Shown here: positions 299 through 10,338 of the stretch, piece by piece
Layout of the letters: the number at the start of each line of letters is the position of its first letter
Position numbering within the stretch: position 1 is the first letter of the stretch
Source of the DNA: Pseudomonas morbosilactucae
Lineage (GTDB): Bacteria; Pseudomonadota; Gammaproteobacteria; Pseudomonadales; Pseudomonadaceae
Length of the DNA: 64,000 bases
Reading direction: 5' to 3'
NCBI RefSeq assembly: GCF_023241715.1
Contig: NZ_JALQCW010000008.1
Coordinates: 1 to 64,000 of the forward strand
Translations under genes and position numbers: made by a program
The notes under the pieces: generated by a model
What the model was told of the DNA's origin: nothing
Seen by the model: the letters and a program-made list of their open reading frames with translations, nothing else
Database searches by the model: none

Positions 299-738
299 CC
301 TGGAGCTCCTCCCACACTGGTGGTGATGTTGTTATGGAAGCCGGTGAAAGCGCTCCTCGATAACAGGGTTATTGCAGCCTGCATGCCAGCTTCAAAAGAA
401 GATAAATACTCAATAAAATCAATAACTTAATATCTATCGACAGACATGCCCGAGACGCATCCTGCACGATGGCCCCTGGTTGACCGTGCGAAATGCACGA
501 TCAGGCCCGCTGCGAATGAGCAAAACTTAAACAAAGGGAACTTTGCCGAGGCCTCGACGGCCTGATCCACACGCGAGGTCCCAAGGGCTTCTGGGCGAAA
601 CCCTAAAAATTTCAAACAATTGGCTATTTCGGGCGCAGATACCCAACCGGCGCCCCGGCGAATCAATCAGAATTAACATTGCAACTTGCCCGATTTTTCC
701 GGGACTAAAGAAGACTATTCATTAAAGGAGCCTGGGAC
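299..738. other. Intergenic region upstream of algB
   Basis: A 440-base gap between two divergent genes. It holds an AT-rich stretch around 395-435 and the algB ribosome binding site AAAGGAG just before 739. The short reading frames in it lack ribosome binding sites and family resemblance. It presumably carries the algB promoter, but I could not fix a -35/-10 pair with confidence. Confidence 0.5.
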
Positions 739-2084
<1,346 letters not shown>

Positions 2085-2094
2085 GCGCCCCCCG

Positions 2095-3879
2095 ATGAAA
2101 CTGGCGATGAAGCTGCGCACGCGACTGTTTTTAAGCATCTCGGCGCTGATCACCGTGGCCCTGCTCGGGCTGTCGCTGGGGCTGGTCAGCGTGATGCAGA
2201 TGGCCAAGACCCAGGAGTCGCTGATCCGCGACAACTTCATCACCCTGGACCTGGGTCTCAAGCTGCGCCAGTCCCTGGGCGACCACCTGATCATCATGCT
2301 CAGCGACACCCACGACCCCAGGGCCCTGGACGCCTCCAAACAGCACTACCTGCAGTTGCTGGACCAAGGCCTGGCCCATGAACAGCAAAGCCGGGTGGAC
2401 AGTGGCTTCCAGAAGGCCCGCAGTGACTACCTGGAATTCATCGACGCCTTCGAACGCAGTGTCGAGTCCAACGACAGCCGCACCAAGGACGAGCTGACCG
2501 CACGCTTCAACACCCTGCGCAGCGGCCTGATCAATGAGCACAAGCAGGCCCTGGACAACATCAATGAGCTGGAGCGCCAGGCCCACGAGCGTGCGTTGTT
2601 GGTGGCGGGGGTACTAGGGCTGGTGGGCGTGGCGGTGCTGATCATCGGCTTTATCACCGCTCACGGCATTGCCCGACGCTTCGGCGCGCCCATCGAGGCC
2701 CTGGCCAAGGCGGCGGATAACATCGGCCAAGGCAACTTCGAAGTGACCCTGCCTATTTCCTCGGCAGCGGAAATGAACCTGCTGACGCGCCGCTTCGGAA
2801 TCATGGCCGAAGCCCTGCGCCAACATCAGGCCACCAATGTCGATGAGCTGCTGGCCGGCCAACAACGCTTGCAAGCGGTGCTCGACAGCATCGACGACGG
2901 CTTGCTGATGATCGACCGCCAGGGCCGCCTGGAGCACCTCAACCCCGTAGCCCAACGCCAGTTGGGTTGGGACGAGGATCGCCTGGGCCAGGGCCTGGGC
3001 AGCGCCCTGCAACGCCCTGAGCTGGATGAACAACTGCAAATGGTGCTGCGCGGCGGCGGCCTGGAGCGGGTCCCGGAGGACCTGAGTATCGAGGTCGACG
3101 GCGAATCACGCCTGCTGACTTATAGCCTGACCCCAGTCAGCCACACCCAGGGCCATATTCTCGGCGCGGTGATGGTGCTGCACGATGTCACCGAGCAGCG
3201 GGCCTTCGAACGGGTGCGCAGCGAATTCGTGCTGCGGGCCTCCCACGAGTTGCGTACCCCCGTCACGGGCATGCACATGGCCTTCGGGCTGTTGCAAGAG
3301 CGCCTGCACTTTTCCGAGGAGTCCCGCGAGGCCGACCTGCTCAATACGGTCAATGAAGAGATGCAACGCCTGATGCAGCTGATCAACGACCTGCTGAACT
3401 TCTCTCGCTATCAGAACGGCCTGCAAAAACTCACGCTGGCCCCCTGTGACCTCGAGGACCTGCTGCAACAAGCCCGTGATCGCTTCAGCGAGCAAGCCCG
3501 TGAGCAGGACATCGAGTTGCTGATGGACCTGCAAACACCGCTGCCACGCCTGCACGCCGACCAGCCCCAGTTGGAACGGGTGCTGGACAACCTGATCGAC
3601 AATGCCCTGCGCCATACCCCCCGGGGCGGGCAGATCCAGCTGCAGGCACGGCGTCACGGAGAACGGGTAATCGTCAGCGTCGAAGACAACGGTGAAGGCA
3701 TCGCCTATGGCCAGCAAGGGCGGATTTTCGAACCCTTTGTCCAGGTCGGACGCAAGAAGGGCGGCGCGGGGTTGGGCTTGGCCTTGTGCAAGGAGATTGT
3801 GCAATTGCACGGCGGGCGCATGGGGGTCTATTCGCGGCCTGGGCAAGGCACCCAGTTCTACCTGGCCCTGCCGCTTTAG
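2095..3879 (+). CDS. kinB: KinB, sensor histidine kinase of the AlgB system
   Basis: Inner-membrane sensor kinase/phosphatase acting on AlgB. Order of parts: transmembrane segment at about 12-34, periplasmic helical region to about 165, second transmembrane segment at about 168-190, HAMP to about 245, PAS at about 255-370 (VLDSIDDGLLMIDRQGRLEHLNP), HisKA with SHELRTP and phospho-accepting His384, then an HATPase domain with N box (DNLIDNALRH), DNGEGI and GGAGLGLALCKEI. Length 594 residues agrees with P. aeruginosa KinB (595 residues, His385). Start at 2095 gives the family N-terminus; an ATG at 2107 is the alternative. It sits 10 bases behind algB and is surely cotranscribed with it. Intact, unlike its partner. 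Confidence 0.95.
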   Translation: MKLAMKLRTRLFLSISALITVALLGLSLGLVSVMQMAKTQESLIRDNFITLDLGLKLRQSLGDHLIIMLSDTHDPRALDASKQHYLQLLDQGLAHEQQSRVDSGFQKARSDYLEFIDAFERSVESNDSRTKDELTARFNTLRSGLINEHKQALDNINELERQAHERALLVAGVLGLVGVAVLIIGFITAHGIARRFGAPIEALAKAADNIGQGNFEVTLPISSAAEMNLLTRRFGIMAEALRQHQATNVDELLAGQQRLQAVLDSIDDGLLMIDRQGRLEHLNPVAQRQLGWDEDRLGQGLGSALQRPELDEQLQMVLRGGGLERVPEDLSIEVDGESRLLTYSLTPVSHTQGHILGAVMVLHDVTEQRAFERVRSEFVLRASHELRTPVTGMHMAFGLLQERLHFSEESREADLLNTVNEEMQRLMQLINDLLNFSRYQNGLQKLTLAPCDLEDLLQQARDRFSEQAREQDIELLMDLQTPLPRLHADQPQLERVLDNLIDNALRHTPRGGQIQLQARRHGERVIVSVEDNGEGIAYGQQGRIFEPFVQVGRKKGGAGLGLALCKEIVQLHGGRMGVYSRPGQGTQFYLALPL

Positions 3880-3888
3880 GGCGGGTGC

Positions 3889-5508
3889 TCAGGCTTCGTC
3901 GTCGATGCGCCGGGGCGCCAGTCTTCGCCCACGGGTAATCAACTCGATGAACTGCACGGCGCTCAGGGCATGGGCAAACAACCAACCCTGGCCGTAACTC
4001 ACGCCTTCGCTGCTCAACAGCAGAGCCTGGTCCTCGTACTCGATACCCTCAGCAATCACCTTGAGCTGCAGGGCATGGGCCATGCGGATAATATGCGGCG
4101 CCACGCCACTGCTGGCTGCATCGTGCCCCAGGGCGTCGATAAACGCCTTGTCGATCTTCAGGCAATCCACCGGCAGGCTTTGCAGGTAAGCCAGGCTGCA
4201 ATAACCGGTGCCGAAATCATCGATCAGCACCTGATGCCCCAAGTCCCTCAGGGCCTGCAAGTTGTCGCGGGCCACCACCACGTCGATCAGCCCACGCTCG
4301 GTCACCTCAAAGGCGATCTGCCGTGCCGCCACCTTGTGCAGGGCCAGCAGGCGGGTCATGACCAGGCCGATGCGCGGCACCATGACATCGCAGGCGGCCA
4401 GGTTGACCGAGATGTACAACTGCGGATTGGCCCGCAGCAGATGCCCCAGTTGCTCCAGCAAACGCTGCAGGACGAAATCGGTGATCTGGCGGATCTGCCC
4501 AGTGTTCTCGGCCAGGGGAATGAACAGGTCGGGGCTGGTCAGGGTGCCGTCCGGCCGCCGCCAGCGCAGCAGGGCCTCGGCGCCGACGCAGTGACGGCTG
4601 CTGAGGTCGAAGATCGGCTGATACAGGACCTGCAATTCGCCGCGACGCACCGCCCCCTGCAACTCTGCGCCCAATGACTGGCGCTGGCGCACCAACTGAT
4701 ACACCAGCCCGCCGATAAACAGCGACAACACCAGGCTCACCGGCAACAGCCACCACCAGTCATCAAGCATTTCCGCTTGCAGGCTGGCGCGCGGGGTAAT
4801 TAGCACCAGTTGGTACTCCGGGGTGCGAGTGGGCATCCGGTAGATCAACTGGGTCGGGGTCAATTGCAGGGCTTCGTGGTCGTTTCGCGGCCAGGCATCA
4901 GCCGGTGGCCAGGCCTGGGCCAGCCCCAGCACCGGGATGGCCCGGGTGCCGTGGTCGAGTACCACCATCAAGCTGCTACCCGCCGGCAGGTCCACCATGT
5001 CAGTCAAATGGCCGCGGGAGGTGGCGACGCGAAAGTTGCCGCGCCCGAGCATCAAGGCCGCCAGGTTTTCGTTGGGCTGGGTGGAGGTGTTGAGCCAGTA
5101 ACTGTAGGTTGGCCCGCGAATATCCGGGGCTCGCGCCGCCGCCAGGCTGTCCTGGCGCGGCCAGTTGGAACAGGCCTGGGTGGCATCGATATAGGCGGCT
5201 TCGTAAATGAAGCGATAGCTGAAACTGACCTGTTGCAGGGCCGCCACCATCTCGCCACTGCATTCTCGCAGCGGCTGGCGCTCCAGCTCGTCCAAGCCTT
5301 CACGCAGTTGGCCGAACAGCTGCTCAAGGCGTTCGAGGAAGCGCTGCCCCTGGGCATTCATTTGCTGGCTTTCGCGCTGGCGCGCCTGATGCATCGCCAG
5401 CCCTCCACTGCCGACCACCAGCAAGCCCGCACTCAGCACAGCCGCAAGCGTCGCCAATAACCAGGGGCGATGGAACCAAGTGCGCGAGGGCTCGCGAGCG
5501 GCGGGCAT
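3889..5508 (-). CDS. CSS-motif EAL-domain cyclic-di-GMP phosphodiesterase
   Basis: Membrane-bound enzyme expected to hydrolyse c-di-GMP to pGpG. It has two transmembrane segments (about 17-38 and 251-271) that enclose a periplasmic domain with Cys83 (ECSGEM) and Cys113 (QACSNW), the spacing and context of the CSS-motif family. The cytoplasmic EAL domain at about 285-530 keeps EALLRW (Glu311), DDFGTGYCSLAYL, KIDKAFID, AEGIE and the loop near QGW, so catalysis looks intact. There is no GGDEF domain. In E. coli, CSS-EAL enzymes such as PdeC are restrained or released by DsbA/DsbB-dependent disulfide formation (family knowledge). It is co-directional with ampDh2 (76-base gap) and further upstream dgcP and dsbA. 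It converges on kinB with a 9-base gap. Confidence 0.92.
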   Translation of the reverse strand: MPAAREPSRTWFHRPWLLATLAAVLSAGLLVVGSGGLAMHQARQRESQQMNAQGQRFLERLEQLFGQLREGLDELERQPLRECSGEMVAALQQVSFSYRFIYEAAYIDATQACSNWPRQDSLAAARAPDIRGPTYSYWLNTSTQPNENLAALMLGRGNFRVATSRGHLTDMVDLPAGSSLMVVLDHGTRAIPVLGLAQAWPPADAWPRNDHEALQLTPTQLIYRMPTRTPEYQLVLITPRASLQAEMLDDWWWLLPVSLVLSLFIGGLVYQLVRQRQSLGAELQGAVRRGELQVLYQPIFDLSSRHCVGAEALLRWRRPDGTLTSPDLFIPLAENTGQIRQITDFVLQRLLEQLGHLLRANPQLYISVNLAACDVMVPRIGLVMTRLLALHKVAARQIAFEVTERGLIDVVVARDNLQALRDLGHQVLIDDFGTGYCSLAYLQSLPVDCLKIDKAFIDALGHDAASSGVAPHIIRMAHALQLKVIAEGIEYEDQALLLSSEGVSYGQGWLFAHALSAVQFIELITRGRRLAPRRIDDEA

Positions 5509-5584
5509 TATTGGACATCCGAAGGATTACCAATCAGTTATAGCTGCTGATGAAGAAAGCGCGCAGACCGTCGGGCGGGCGTCA

Positions 5585-6364
5585 TTATTTTGTCTGGTTG
5601 AGCACCTGCAAAATAGCCGCGCTTTCAGCGTCCGGGGTGCCGTCGAAACGTGCCGGACGATAGTGCATCTGGAAGGCCGCTAGCACGTGGCGAGTCGCTA
5701 CATCCCACTCACCGGTCTGCGGCGTGCCATAACCCAGGTGCGCCAGCTGTTGCTGGAACCAACTGATACTCGGCAACTGGTTCGCGTAGAGCGCCTGCTG
5801 GGCGGCCACTGCCTGGGCATTGGGCCACTGGCCAAGGCCCGCTTCCGCCAGGCGCTTCCAGGGGAACAGCGGGCCCGGATCGAGCTTGCGCAACGGTGCA
5901 ATATCGCTGTGGCCGATGATGTGCTGCGGCGAGATGCGGTTGCGCTGGCTGATGTCTTTGAGCAGCACGATCAGGTTCTGGATCTGCGCTTCGCTGTAGG
6001 GGTACCAGAGGCGCCCGGTGGGCGTGTCGCGGAACCCCGGGTTGACGATCTCGATCCCGATGGAGCTGGAGTTGAGCCAGGTACGGCCCTGCCACTCGCT
6101 TTCGCCGGCGTGCCAGGCGCGGTAGTTCTCGTCCACCAGTTTGTAGACGGTCGCGGCCTTGTCATCGCCGATCAGGTAATGGCTACTGACCTGGCCATGG
6201 GTCAGCAAGGCCAGGGAGCGTTCCAGGGACGCGGAGGTGTAGTGCACCACGATGAATTGCGCGCGGTTGTCGAAGTTGACCGAGGGGTGGCTGGTGTCGA
6301 TCCGCGGGCCGCTGGCGCAACCGGCGAGAGCTAAAAGGGAGAAGGCGAGAGCAAGAAGTTTCAT
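5585..6364 (-). CDS. ampDh2: AmpDh2-type N-acetylmuramoyl-L-alanine amidase lipoprotein
   Basis: Zinc amidase cleaving the MurNAc to L-Ala bond in peptidoglycan or its fragments. Signal peptide with lipobox LAGC at about residues 13-16 indicates an outer-membrane or periplasmic lipoprotein, unlike cytosolic AmpD. The Amidase_2 domain shows FIVVHYTSAS with the first zinc His, GIEIVNPG, and GHSDIAPLRKLDPGPLFPW with the second His and the Asp ligand. A C-terminal peptidoglycan-binding-like helical domain covers about 190-255. Length 259 residues matches P. aeruginosa AmpDh2, which also neighbours kinB. Start at 6364 gives a proper signal peptide. Probable role in wall turnover and indirectly in AmpR/AmpC control. 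Confidence 0.92.
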   Translation of the reverse strand: MKLLALAFSLLALAGCASGPRIDTSHPSVNFDNRAQFIVVHYTSASLERSLALLTHGQVSSHYLIGDDKAATVYKLVDENYRAWHAGESEWQGRTWLNSSSIGIEIVNPGFRDTPTGRLWYPYSEAQIQNLIVLLKDISQRNRISPQHIIGHSDIAPLRKLDPGPLFPWKRLAEAGLGQWPNAQAVAAQQALYANQLPSISWFQQQLAHLGYGTPQTGEWDVATRHVLAAFQMHYRPARFDGTPDAESAAILQVLNQTK

Positions 6365-6467
6365 GGCAAGGGGCAGTACGCTGAAGACAGTAATGCAACA
6401 GTGTAACGGAATGCCCCCAGCCGAACCGGCAAAAGCGCGGCTTGATACAAAATTCGCTGGCTGCCCG

Positions 6468-8699
6468 TCAGCCCAATTCCACCCGGTTACGGCCGGCGTC
6501 TTTGGCCCGATACAACGCCTGATCGGCTCTTTTGATCACCAGATCGCCCCGTTCTCCCGGCTTGAAGGCGCTCACGCCAATGGACACGGTGATCGTCACA
6601 CGCTCGCCCTTGAAGTGAAACGGACAGGCTTCAATGGCCGCTCGCAAGGCTTCCAGCAACCGGCTGCCCACCGGCCAGGGCGTGTTGGGCATCAGCAGCA
6701 CAAACTCTTCGCCACCGAACCGGGCAATGAAATCGCTGCCCCGCAGCCGTTTGCGCAACACGCTGGCGATGATCTTCAGCACCTTGTCGCCGGCCAGGTG
6801 GCCATAGTTGTCGTTGATGCGCTTGAAGTGGTCCAAGTCCAGCATCGCCAGCAACAGCGTATTGCCGTGCTGCTGCCACTGGCTGACTTCGTGCTCCAGG
6901 CGTTCGCTCCAAGCGGCGCGATTGGGCAAGCCGGTGAGGGGGTCGATCAGGGCTTTCTGCCGCTGTTCTTCCAGGTGCTCACGGTAACCCTGGGCCTCCT
7001 GCTCCATGCTTGAGACCCGCTCCGCCAGGCTTTGCAAGCGTGTGGCGACTTCTCGCTCACGCTCGTCGCGCTGCTTCTGGTGCTGGTCCATGGTGCCTAG
7101 CAGCCCTTCCAGATGACTCTCCAGCACCTGCTTGAGGTCATCCAGGTCGGCGGCTTCCTGGACGCTGCTTTGCAGGCCATCGACCTGCTCGCGAATCTGG
7201 TTGTCCATGGCTCGGGCGGCGGAATGGCTTTCGGCATGCCCTTCGCTGGCGGCCTGCAGATTGTTCTGGAAAGACTCCAGGCGCTCATTGAGCTGCTTGA
7301 GGTAAGTCTCGAATTCATGCTGGCCACTGTCGGTGATCGCCAGCATCAGCACGGCCAGGTCATCGAGGATCGGCAGCAGTTCGTACCAATTCAGGCCGTG
7401 CTCCAGGCGATCGCGCATGGCTTCCGCCTGGGGCCGATGGCGTTCGGGCAGGCTCAGGTCATCCAAGAGCCCCAGCAAGGTGCTTTCGATGTGCTTGGCC
7501 ACCGAGCTGTAGGACGGTTCTGGCGAGTCCGGCAGGGCGTAGAGCACGTCCTCTTCAGGCTGTTCAGGGTCGATCGCCGCCAGGGCTTCGGCCATGACCG
7601 CCGGCAGGGGCAGGCTGTCGAGCAGCGCCACGGACGGCGTACTGCCCTCGGTCGCCGGTGAAGGCGGGAGCAGTTCGTCAGGATTGAGCAACGCTTCCGG
7701 TGTCGGCTCCGGGGAGGCCACGGCAACAGGTGCGGGCGGCTCGGCTGGCGGGCTTTGCGCTTGATCGGCCTCGACAACAGACGCTACCACCACGGGTTCG
7801 GGCTGCAGCACCGGAGGTACAAAGGCCGTGACCTGCGCCGCCGGCGGTGCTTCCGCAAGCGGTTCGGGGGCTGTCGAGCAGGGCGGCGCGGGCGTAGGTT
7901 CTGGTTCTGGCTCTGGCTCTGGCTCTGGGTCGAGCTCAGGCAATGCCTCGATGCCGGGCTGGATCGGAGTTGTAGCCGGCAGTGGGTCCATGACCGACGG
8001 TACCGGTGTCACCGAGGCCGGTTTGGCAGGCACCGAATCGGGCGGCGGATCAAACGCAGGCATCACATCGTCGGCGTCTTCATCGTCATCCGGCGATGCT
8101 GATGGCGATGGCTTTGCTGCGGGGGTCGAGATCGACGCCGGGGTTTCGCTGACAGCGTCTTGCGAATCTGCCTCACGGGCGCCGAACAAGCGCTGGAGGA
8201 ACCCGGGGCGGTTCGTCTCCTCCTCAGGATTGTCCAGCACGCTCAGGGCCTGACCCTGCAAGCCACTGAGCTCGCCCAGAAGCAGGGGAATCTCTCGAGC
8301 CTGGCCGACCCGACTGTCCAATTGCTTGGCGAACTTCTTCAGCGGGCGGCTGACTTCCCGGGGCAGTGGCAAAGCCTGAAGCTGAGTGACCAGGGCCGTC
8401 AGGGCGCTGCTCATCTGATTCATTCGGGTTTCGCGGCGCTGCTCGGAGTCGAGCACGGCTTTTTCCAGGCGCGGCAACAAGGCTGCCAGGCCCGCATCCA
8501 TGTCGTCGCTACGCACCACGTCGCGCATTTCCTTCATGCACTGGTCGACGGCGCGGTCAGTCCCTTCTGCCGCCAGGGTGCTGCGCACCAAGCCACGGCG
8601 CAGCAAGTCGAGGCGGGCATCCCAACGACGCTCGAGCTTTTCCTGTTGTTCGATGCTTTTAAGGTATTTCTCTTTCCAGCGCTGGGCGTCGTCGCTCAT
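6468..8699 (-). CDS. dgcP: DgcP, diguanylate cyclase with proline-rich linker and coiled coil
   Basis: Makes c-di-GMP from two GTP. N-terminal helical region (1-165), a long Pro/Ala/Glu-rich disordered linker (about 175-385) with a Pro-Glu dipeptide run, helical region with coiled coil (about 450-590), then a GGDEF domain. The active site is GGEEF at about 662-666, and the RGSD I-site lies five residues before it, so product inhibition is likely. No membrane segment is visible. The P. aeruginosa orthologue (PA5487, same position between ampDh2 and dsbA) is reported as a polar protein dependent on FimV (from memory). Its ATG overlaps the stop of the EEP gene by four bases, so translation is probably coupled. 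The linker is encoded partly by a hexanucleotide repeat near 7897-7926. Confidence 0.93.
7897..7926. repeat. Hexanucleotide repeat coding for Pro-Glu dipeptides inside dgcP
   Basis: Two copies of GGTTCT followed by three copies of GGCTCT on the plus strand, five in all. On the coding strand each unit encodes Glu-Pro, giving a PEPEPEPEP run in the disordered linker. Gains or losses of a unit would keep the reading frame. Confidence 0.85.
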
Positions 8700-9574
8700 T
8701 CATCGGATCCGCGAGGGGCAGTGCTCAACACGGGGAGGGCATCGGCCGTGAGCAAACCCGGCAAACGAATCTCTACCGCGACCGGCAGGTGATCGGAAAT
8801 GGGTTGGGCCAGGACTTCGACACGCTCCAGGGTCAGGCTGGGGCTGAGCAGAATGTGGTCCAGGCAGCGTTGGGGGCGCCAACTGGGAAACGTCGCTTCC
8901 AGTTGTGGCGCAAGCAAACCAAGGTCGCGTAAGGGCGAGTGCTCCAGCAGGTCGCTGGCGTGGGTGTTCATGTCACCCATCAATACCTGATGCCGGTAGC
9001 CGCCGATCAGCTCGCGGATATACGCAAGCTGCCGGGTGCGGGTTCGAGCCCCCAGCGCCAGGTGCATCATCACCACCACCAGTGCTTCAGGGCCTTCGCC
9101 GAAACGCACGAGAATCGCCCCCCGGCCTTTGGGGCCAGGCAGCGGATGATCTTCAATCGCCCAGGGCTTCAAGCGACTGAGCACGCCATTGCTGTGCTGG
9201 CCCAGGCGTCCCAGGTTACGATTGAGTTGTTGATACCAATAGGGGAAGGCACCCAGCTGGGCCAGGTGTTCCACCTGATTGACGTAGCCTGAACGCAGGC
9301 TACCGCCATCGGCTTCCTGCAGGGCCACCAGGTCGAAGTCGCCCAGCAGGTTGCCGATTTTTTGCAGATTGTCGGCACGCCCGGTGTGGGGCAGCAGGTG
9401 CTGCCAACCACGGGTCAGGTAATGACGATAACGCTCGGTGCTGATACCGACCTGGATGTTGAAGCTGAGTAAACGTAAACGGCTATCGGCCGGCAGCCCA
9501 GTCGACGTCAGATGATGCTCGTTGACCTGCGCATCATGCAGGCCAACCAGCCGTTCATTACCCCAGCGCGACAT
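8696..9574 (-). CDS. Endonuclease/exonuclease/phosphatase family protein
   Basis: A 292-residue metal-dependent phosphodiesterase of the EEP superfamily. Visible motifs are LLSFNIQVG near residue 35, ALQEADGGS (metal-binding Glu), GDMNTHASD (catalytic Asp/Asn) and the C-terminal [11 protein letters not shown] (Asp-His). No signal peptide or membrane segment is seen, so it is probably cytosolic. The substrate is not evident. It lies between dsbA (13-base gap) and dgcP (four-base overlap), the same place as PA5488 in P. aeruginosa, so it is probably cotranscribed with both. Confidence 0.88.
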
Positions 9575-9587
9575 GGCGGGGCGCCGC

Positions 9588-10217
9588 TTACTTGGCCGCT
9601 CGCTCTTTGGCGATCAACTGATCGGCCACGCTCAACACGCCTTCAGGACCACCGGCGCTGCCGAGATCGAAGCGGTATTTGCCATTGACAACCATGGTCG
9701 GCACACCAGAGATCTGATAGGCCTGGGCCTTCTTCTTGGCGTCCTCGACTTTGCCTTTGACGGCGAAGGAGTTGTAGGTGCTGAGGAACTTGCCCTTATC
9801 GATGCCTTCACCCGCCAGGAAGTCAGCCATTTCTTCCGGCGTGGCGAGTTTCTTGCCACCGTGGATGGCTTCGAATACCGCCTTGTGGACGTTGTGTTCG
9901 ACGCCCATGGCTTCCAGGGTGATGAACAACTGGCCGTGAACGTTCCAGATACCGCCGAACATCGCCGGAATACGCACGAAGTTCACGTCGGCAGGCAGTT
10001 TTTCAACCCATGGATTGATGGTCGGCTCAAACGCATAGCAATGGGGGCAGCCGTACCAGAACAGCTCGACGACTTCGATCTTGCCAGGCACCGCAACCGG
10101 AACGGCGCTGCTCAACTCAACAAATTGTTTACCGGCTACAAGGGGCTCGTCGGCTTGAGCGGTCACGCCAAACAGGCTGGCGGTGACGAGAGCGGCGCTG
10201 AGGATCAGATTACGCAT
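9588..10217 (-). CDS. dsbA: DsbA, periplasmic thiol:disulfide oxidoreductase
   Basis: Introduces disulfides into exported proteins and is reoxidised by DsbB. Signal peptide at about 1-22 ends at AQA. The thioredoxin fold carries the active-site CPHC in FWYGCPHCYAF, and the cis-proline is in GVPTMVVNG. Length of 209 residues is typical. The start is supported by AGGAG six bases upstream. It heads a tight gene group with the EEP gene and dgcP, so disulfide formation and c-di-GMP synthesis genes are probably on one transcript. Confidence 0.96.
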   Translation of the reverse strand: MRNLILSAALVTASLFGVTAQADEPLVAGKQFVELSSAVPVAVPGKIEVVELFWYGCPHCYAFEPTINPWVEKLPADVNFVRIPAMFGGIWNVHGQLFITLEAMGVEHNVHKAVFEAIHGGKKLATPEEMADFLAGEGIDKGKFLSTYNSFAVKGKVEDAKKKAQAYQISGVPTMVVNGKYRFDLGSAGGPEGVLSVADQLIAKERAAK

Positions 10218-10310
10218 GCTTTACTCCTGAACAATTAGGTCGCCTCGCGCGACCTGGCTTCAGACAGGTCATGGCGGGCTTGAGTTCGCTAGTGTAGCGG
10301 CAGACGCCAT

Positions 10311-10338
10311 AAAAAAGGGCGGCCTGAGCCACCCTTTA
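10311..10338 (-). terminator. Intrinsic terminator after the cytochrome c4 gene
   Basis: On the minus strand a stem of AAGGGTGGC with GCCGCCCTT and a short TCAG loop is followed by six T. It lies between the stop of the c4 gene (10415) and the dsbA start (10217), so the c-type cytochromes and dsbA are probably separate transcription units. Confidence 0.7.

Follow-up and report, generated by a model that had tools for sequence, protein, structure and literature searches.

A minus-strand gene in a stretch of Pseudomonas morbosilactucae DNA (contig NZ_JALQCW010000008.1, positions 1 to 64,000; the whole 64,000 nucleotides are called the window below) is predicted to encode a CSS-motif EAL phosphodiesterase (CSS-EAL protein), whose two periplasmic cysteines are almost always kept in Pseudomonas orthologues and align with the cysteine pair of Escherichia coli PdeC. 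We consider it fairly probable that this protein is a redox-tuned phosphodiesterase of the PdeC type, on which DsbA acts in trans, and that the adjacency of its gene to dsbA and the diguanylate cyclase gene dgcP is old synteny. The basis observed in the window and its relatives comprises the domains, the EAL motifs, the conserved cysteines aligned with PdeC, the position of the gene, the box upstream of it and purifying selection. An intact and widely conserved Pseudomonas CSS-EAL enzyme offers a test of the generality of PdeC-type redox control, and the test system is simple, with two cysteines and a single dsbA gene at a distance of about 4 kb. The gene and the two codons lie as follows.

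3889..5508, minus strand: predicted CSS-motif EAL phosphodiesterase gene, 539 aa (open reading frame [ORF], Pfam, motif alignment)
5260..5262, minus strand: Cys83 codon, aligned with PdeC Cys75 (position counted from the start of the ORF)
5170..5172, minus strand: Cys113 codon of a Cys-Ser-Asn triplet, aligned with PdeC Cys106 (position likewise counted from the start of the ORF)

The CSS-EAL protein and its cysteine pair

The Pfam search places the CSS motif (PF12792) at residues 46-248 of the window protein with 99.2 bits (cut-off 23), followed by the EAL domain at residues 282-513 with 203.4 bits, far above its cut-off. The EAL motifs EALLR, SVNL, EVTE, DDFGTGYCSL, LKIDK, AEGIE and GQGWLF are invariant or nearly so in an alignment of 110 rows taken from the loci, and we presume the usual assignment of catalytic residues among them. 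Hydrophobic segments, candidates for membrane helices on either side of the CSS domain, were located by eye near residues 17-40 and 251-272, with a low-confidence structure model putting helices at 15-75 and 254-288. Five comparisons between the window and near relatives give a ratio of nonsynonymous to synonymous substitution rates (dN/dS) that lies at 0.09-0.13 in the CSS domain and at 0.04-0.08 in the EAL domain, showing purifying selection on the gene.

The protein has cysteines at positions 83, 113, 307, 373, 437 and 449, of which only Cys83 and Cys113 fall inside the CSS domain, as an earlier interpretation made from the DNA letters (the sequence-only reading) had said. Conservation was followed in a genus sample of 149 genomes, which overlaps in part with the named loci described below. 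A match at E 1e-60 was found in 96 of them; one (G026) is a 34% identical paralogue and was removed, leaving 95 orthologues of 59-100% identity. Both cysteines are present in 94 of the 95, Cys83 in the same 94 and Cys113 in all, the cysteines of the orthologues in G148 and G080, which are split over two or three frames, being read from separate pieces. The residues beside the cysteines vary, for example at positions 84, 85, 112 and 116 in the 110 rows. A larger set of 135 rows (124 distinct) has exactly two cysteines in the periplasmic stretch in 132 rows and one in a single row, with two fragmentary rows lacking coverage; the 110-row and 135-row sets overlap each other and the 95 orthologues and are not independent counts. 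Absence of the pair from orthologues was the finding that the sequence-only reading had named as speaking against it, and such near-complete retention is the reverse, so that the cysteine part of that reading is well supported by the alignments.

The closest known system is E. coli PdeC (YjcC; the K-12 protein was aligned), in which a CSS domain is likewise followed by an EAL domain. PdeC Cys75 and Cys106 align exactly with Cys83 and Cys113, and 103 of 231 EAL positions are identical, whereas the CSS domains share just 34 of 192 positions, and the triplet at the second cysteine is Cys-Ser-Ser (CSS) in PdeC but Cys-Ser-Asn (CSN) in the window protein. The neighbourhoods differ too, since E. coli pdeC adjoins soxS and soxR, and the 7 kb examined there contain no dsbA. 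Activity and redox control have been demonstrated for PdeC (reviewed in PMC8846402), while the window protein is known from its sequence. The disulfide form of PdeC is described to have low activity, the free-thiol form to dimerise and be active, and a proteolysed form to be active as well; PdeC without its cysteines reduced matrix production further, that is, its activity rose (PMC8846402).

By analogy with PdeC, redox control of the CSS-EAL enzyme is likely. The product would be an inner-membrane phosphodiesterase degrading c-di-GMP, in which the periplasmic Cys83 and Cys113 would be joined by an intramolecular disulfide made by DsbA. The EAL domain would be damped as long as the disulfide is present, and reduction of the pair or a shortage of DsbA would make the enzyme more active and lower c-di-GMP. 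That a disulfide forms, that DsbA makes it and which way it controls the enzyme are thus carried over from PdeC. Exported cysteine pairs are expected to be oxidised by DsbA irrespective of the site of its gene, and this protein would be reached in trans, as other exported proteins are.

The general idea of a link between CSS enzymes and DsbA is not new, because in P. aeruginosa the CSS-EAL enzymes PA2200 and Arr (PA2818) have been tied to DsbA and to dithiothreitol effects and proposed to be under CSS disulfide control, with dsbA and PA2200 recovered in the same screen (PMC10960818), and because a predicted operon of dsbA with a diguanylate cyclase gene has been published. We liken PA2200 and Arr to the window protein by their published description and not by sequence. 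The operon, reported in 2024 with a suggestion of potential co-regulation, contains the cyclase gene “dgcH” (PMC10960818), which we infer to be the dgcP of other authors. DgcP (PA5487) is a Pseudomonas-conserved GGDEF enzyme with published roles in attachment and c-di-GMP level (PMC9355167, PMC7033161, PMC5478681). No published study naming the present CSS-EAL orthologue was found among the papers listed.

The genome of the window has a second CSS-EAL gene (L204 4248-5941, G000:C144), which is divided between two frames. Its counterpart in another genome of this species (L205 4019-5173, G071:C13) has a frame that stops at 384 aa, with similarity continuing beyond the stop. If the break in the second copy is real, the window copy is the sole CSS-EAL gene with an intact frame in the strain.

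Objections to redox control and the structural alternative

Several observations weigh against a redox-tuned enzyme of the PdeC type. Of the 95 orthologues, 73 have CSN as the triplet at the second cysteine, 20 have CSS and 2 have CTN. The sequence-only reading placed the pair in the setting of the CSS domain, which PF12792 matches; the triplet at Cys113 of the window protein is not Cys-Ser-Ser. We do not treat the third serine as essential, because the curated CSS-motif model matches the window protein strongly despite the CSN. The orthologue in G037 (L191) has a tyrosine at position 83, with Cys113 kept and the frame open. The AlphaFold models of the CSS domain are poor, with a mean predicted local distance difference test score (pLDDT) of 61.6 and 51.2 in two runs on shallow alignments of 55 and 48 rows, so that they provide no check of the Cys83/Cys113 geometry and nothing was drawn from them. 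A sequence search of the PDB at E 0.01 yielded no solved CSS domain either, the 45 matches listed all beginning at residue 263 or later, in the linker and EAL domain.

The phenotypes of dsb mutants elsewhere point the same way. Loss of dsbA in P. aeruginosa raises basal biofilm, and raises c-di-GMP in work cited in the same paper (PMC10960818), Salmonella dsbA and dsbB mutants form more biofilm (PMC4143323), and P. fluorescens dsbRS/dsbDEG mutants bind more Congo red (PMC13101516). These results weigh against the simple reading because a dominant PdeC-like enzyme predicts the opposite, although none of them concerns the CSS-EAL protein of the window. The opposite sign suggests that other disulfide-dependent proteins, for example YfiR, as put forward in PMC13101516, may dominate the net effect in those hosts. 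YfiR/HmsC resembles the proposed system in that a periplasmic disulfide state controls c-di-GMP output (PMC8846402, PMC13101516), the difference being that it is a separate periplasmic regulator acting on synthesis, with no CSS domain acting on breakdown.

The conserved disulfide could also be purely structural. The Cys83-Cys113 bond would then always be formed and hold the CSS domain together, with the protein sensing another periplasmic cue such as a ligand or partner, and the redox idea would be misleading. A pair that is almost never lost fits this explanation, as do the 75 of 203 periplasmic positions that are invariant in the 110-row CSS-EAL alignment, far above what a bare redox switch would need and suggesting a second sensory or partner role. 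However, removal of the exactly aligned cysteines of PdeC raised its activity (PMC8846402), and the G037 orthologue keeps its frame without Cys83. We regard a purely structural role as somewhat unlikely, although it is the strongest competitor of the PdeC-type reading. The G037 orthologue and the lineages that lack the gene offer natural comparisons.

Gene order, promoter-like boxes and history of the locus

The genes surrounding the CSS-EAL gene are the following.

11020-10415, minus strand: cytochrome c4 gene
9588..10217, minus strand: dsbA, 209 aa, CPHC active site (ORF list, Pfam, alignments)
8696..9574, minus strand: endonuclease/exonuclease/phosphatase (EEP)-family gene, 292 aa (ORF, Pfam)
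6468..8699, minus strand: dgcP, 743 aa, diguanylate cyclase-associated coil (PF20975) and GGDEF domain with a GGEEF motif (Pfam)
5585..6364, minus strand: N-acetylmuramoyl-L-alanine amidase gene, AmpDh2-like, with a peptidoglycan-binding domain, 259 aa (ORF, Pfam)
2095..3879, plus strand: kinB-like gene for a sensor kinase, converging on the CSS-EAL gene

On the minus strand the order of transcription is cytochrome c4, dsbA, EEP, dgcP, amidase and CSS-EAL, after which the convergent kinB-like gene follows at a spacing of 9 bp; cytochrome c4, dgcP, kinB, algB and AmpDh2 are names that we take these locus genes to carry. The dsbA product matches the Pfam DSBA family and solved DsbA chains, with E values down to 6.5e-100. 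The dgcP product combines PF20975 with GGDEF and adjoins dsbA-EEP, as is characteristic of DgcP; its N-terminal half is variable, the best match in many genomes being limited to residues 230-743 or so of the window protein. The EEP protein has no solved relative in a PDB search by sequence at E 0.01.

In the sequence-only reading, dsbA, dgcP and the CSS-EAL gene formed a block on one strand within 6.3 kb, with dsbA-EEP-dgcP nearly free of gaps. The ORFs agree with the genes, the strand and the span, and the tight packing is borne out by a gap of 13 bp between dsbA and EEP and an overlap of 4 bp between EEP and dgcP. What was overlooked is the amidase gene at 5585-6364, which stands between dgcP and CSS-EAL with gaps of 103 bp and 76 bp, respectively. 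In P. aeruginosa, we take the order to be kinB, ampDh2, PA5486, dgcP, PA5488, dsbA, with no EAL gene there.

Alignment of the intergenic regions revealed conserved elements.

5517..5544, minus strand: conserved 28-nt block starting GCTATAAC, with a -10-like GCTATAA and a GGAT near the start codon, upstream of CSS-EAL
6386..6408, minus strand: CGTTACACTGTTGCATTACTGTC, a conserved promoter-like block ahead of the amidase gene (80 intergenic regions aligned)
10291..10298, minus strand: promoter-like GCTACACT (consensus GTTACACT) upstream of dsbA (79 intergenic regions aligned)
10311..10336, minus strand: terminator-like hairpin and T run 3' of the cytochrome c4 gene, parting it from dsbA (by eye)

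The block upstream of CSS-EAL is conserved in 81 aligned sequences and probably represents the gene's own promoter and ribosome-binding region. The named Pseudomonas loci to which it was compared are the best 80 of at least 579 confirmed relatives; 74 of them differ from the window block by 1-3 mismatches and the other 6 by 5-10, and GCTATA[A/C] occurs within 80 nt upstream of the gene in 92 of 93 orthologues, two fragmented ones being excluded. The amidase-to-CSS-EAL spacing, with the stop codon counted, is 77-80 nt in all 80 named loci. Among the 31 gene-free sites described below, none of the 19 long-enough gaps holds the block with fewer than 11 mismatches; the bare 7-mer occurs at two gene-free sites, L114 and L139, by chance or as a trace. 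The CGTTACACTGTTGCATTACTGTC block is mostly conserved at 90% or above per column, with exceptions such as L049, and the terminator-like hairpin is conserved in the alignment and unlisted by the pattern scan. Since the scan for sigma-70 promoter and terminator patterns gave no excess over shuffled sequences, the promoter reading rests on conservation. Because conserved promoter-like boxes precede the dsbA, amidase and CSS-EAL genes, the stretch from dsbA to CSS-EAL is probably made up of about three transcription units, with read-through possible.

By the CSS-EAL start (5517-5527), the GGAT may be part of a small hairpin, ATCC-TTC-GGAT, and it resembles a GGA site of the RsmA/CsrA type. Post-transcriptional control of the gene through such a site is conceivable.

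The surroundings of the gene are conserved. In all 80 named loci CSS-EAL is preceded by the amidase gene and followed by the kinB-like gene, the latter 2.5 kb off in L082, and L021 has a separation of 0.7 kb between dgcP and the amidase gene. In all 78 assessable named loci, dsbA and EEP are in place on the same strand, with the CPHC active site in each; in the other two the contig ends before them. In the genus sample, 93 of the 95 CSS-EAL orthologues share the strand of dgcP and follow it downstream at 0.9-3.8 kb, the exceptions being G023, where the orthologue is 44.6 kb from dgcP on the opposite strand, and G080, where it is fragmented and about 18 kb away.

The gene itself comes and goes. 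DgcP has a counterpart in 148 of the 149 genomes, 53 of which lack a CSS-EAL orthologue, and dgcP is therefore not dependent on CSS-EAL. The amidase gene is followed by the kinB-like gene within 300 bp in 31 of these 53 genomes, and 30 of the sites are empty; in G106 (L127), the 229-bp gap holds a decayed CSS-EAL remnant, in which about 31 EAL residues can be recognised and which directly indicates gene loss. The other 22 loci are rearranged or incomplete. A tree of 91 loci was built with 38 that carry the gene (14 of the 80 named, 23 further carriers and the window) and 53 without it, G023, G080 and other carriers being excluded; presence and absence need at least 9 changes on it, compared to a mean of 29 for shuffled labels. 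As the tree is a fast one in which two long branches meet, only clustering and repeated change were taken from it. A search of 244 genomes of the order at E 1e-70 found no orthologue beyond the genus, the three hits there being just 32-34% identical, and in a class-wide draw of 114 genomes the CSS motif was matched only in the window's own genome, with a DsbA-like protein in 100. Among the matches listed, all 33 other CSS-motif genes on the dgcP contig are more than 2.1 Mb from dgcP in linear coordinates; on circular contigs the distance would still be at least 0.98 Mb (some sizes being rounded). A CSS enzyme thus need not adjoin dsbA.

The sequence-only reading had proposed a local circuit, with c-di-GMP breakdown set by envelope redox and its synthesis supplied by DgcP. 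In the form weighed here, dsbA, dgcP and the CSS-EAL gene would stand together since envelope redox jointly sets c-di-GMP synthesis and breakdown, through co-expression or shared control. A dedicated circuit of this kind is plausible in view of the tight dsbA-EEP-dgcP group, the same-strand position downstream of dgcP, the near-constant amidase spacing and the co-regulation suggested for the P. aeruginosa operon (PMC10960818). It is nevertheless weakened by the dgcP-bearing genomes that lack the gene, the repeated changes on the locus tree, the intervening amidase gene and the remoteness of the other CSS-motif genes; the boxes before the amidase and CSS-EAL genes disfavour simple co-transcription, and the dsb phenotypes of P. 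aeruginosa and Salmonella have the wrong sign. On balance we judge it unlikely. The neighbourhood is genuine and conserved, yet as evidence for a circuit it counts only modestly, because DsbA would oxidise exported pairs from anywhere and other CSS genes are distant; the orthologue keeps its spot nonetheless.

A related idea, which we hold to be rather unlikely, is a genus-level module in which DsbA, DgcP and a disulfide-gated phosphodiesterase are kept adjacent so that the oxidising capacity of the envelope sets c-di-GMP turnover, with CSS-EAL lost wholesale where this control was abandoned. Least convincing, and in our view improbable, is that the genes are chance neighbours, unrelated in regulation and together only by inheritance of an old order. 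In its favour, conservation extends widely over the run of genes from cytochrome c4 through algB, some of which have no known role in c-di-GMP, and CSS-motif genes elsewhere lie far off; against it, orthologues hold their position despite repeated gene loss and DsbA is expected to act on the exported pair in any case. Under the favoured PdeC-type reading, the place beside dsbA-EEP-dgcP would be an old Pseudomonas arrangement kept mainly by descent, and the CSS-EAL gene would probably be expressed from its own promoter.

Minor observations on neighbouring genes

The identity of DsbA to the window protein is bimodal, being about 92-96% in 11 of the 78 named loci and 67-77% in the other 67, unlike that of EEP, which is near 90% in the named loci. 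In a DsbA tree of 91 rows, six window-type rows form one group (98) that is discordant with the locus tree. Recombination may have exchanged dsbA, perhaps together with a portion of the cytochrome gene.

A genus group, g3, was considered as the P. aeruginosa group and dropped, since in three g3 genomes the 10 kb or so downstream of dgcP hold neither an amidase gene nor a kinB-like one, at odds with the P. aeruginosa order given above.

The algB-like regulator gene at 712-2081 (plus strand) is split over two frames joining near 1281-1290, although it is unbroken in all 80 named relatives, with one match of at least 430 residues in each. The split in the window may be a real mutation of the strain or a sequencing error, either being possible.

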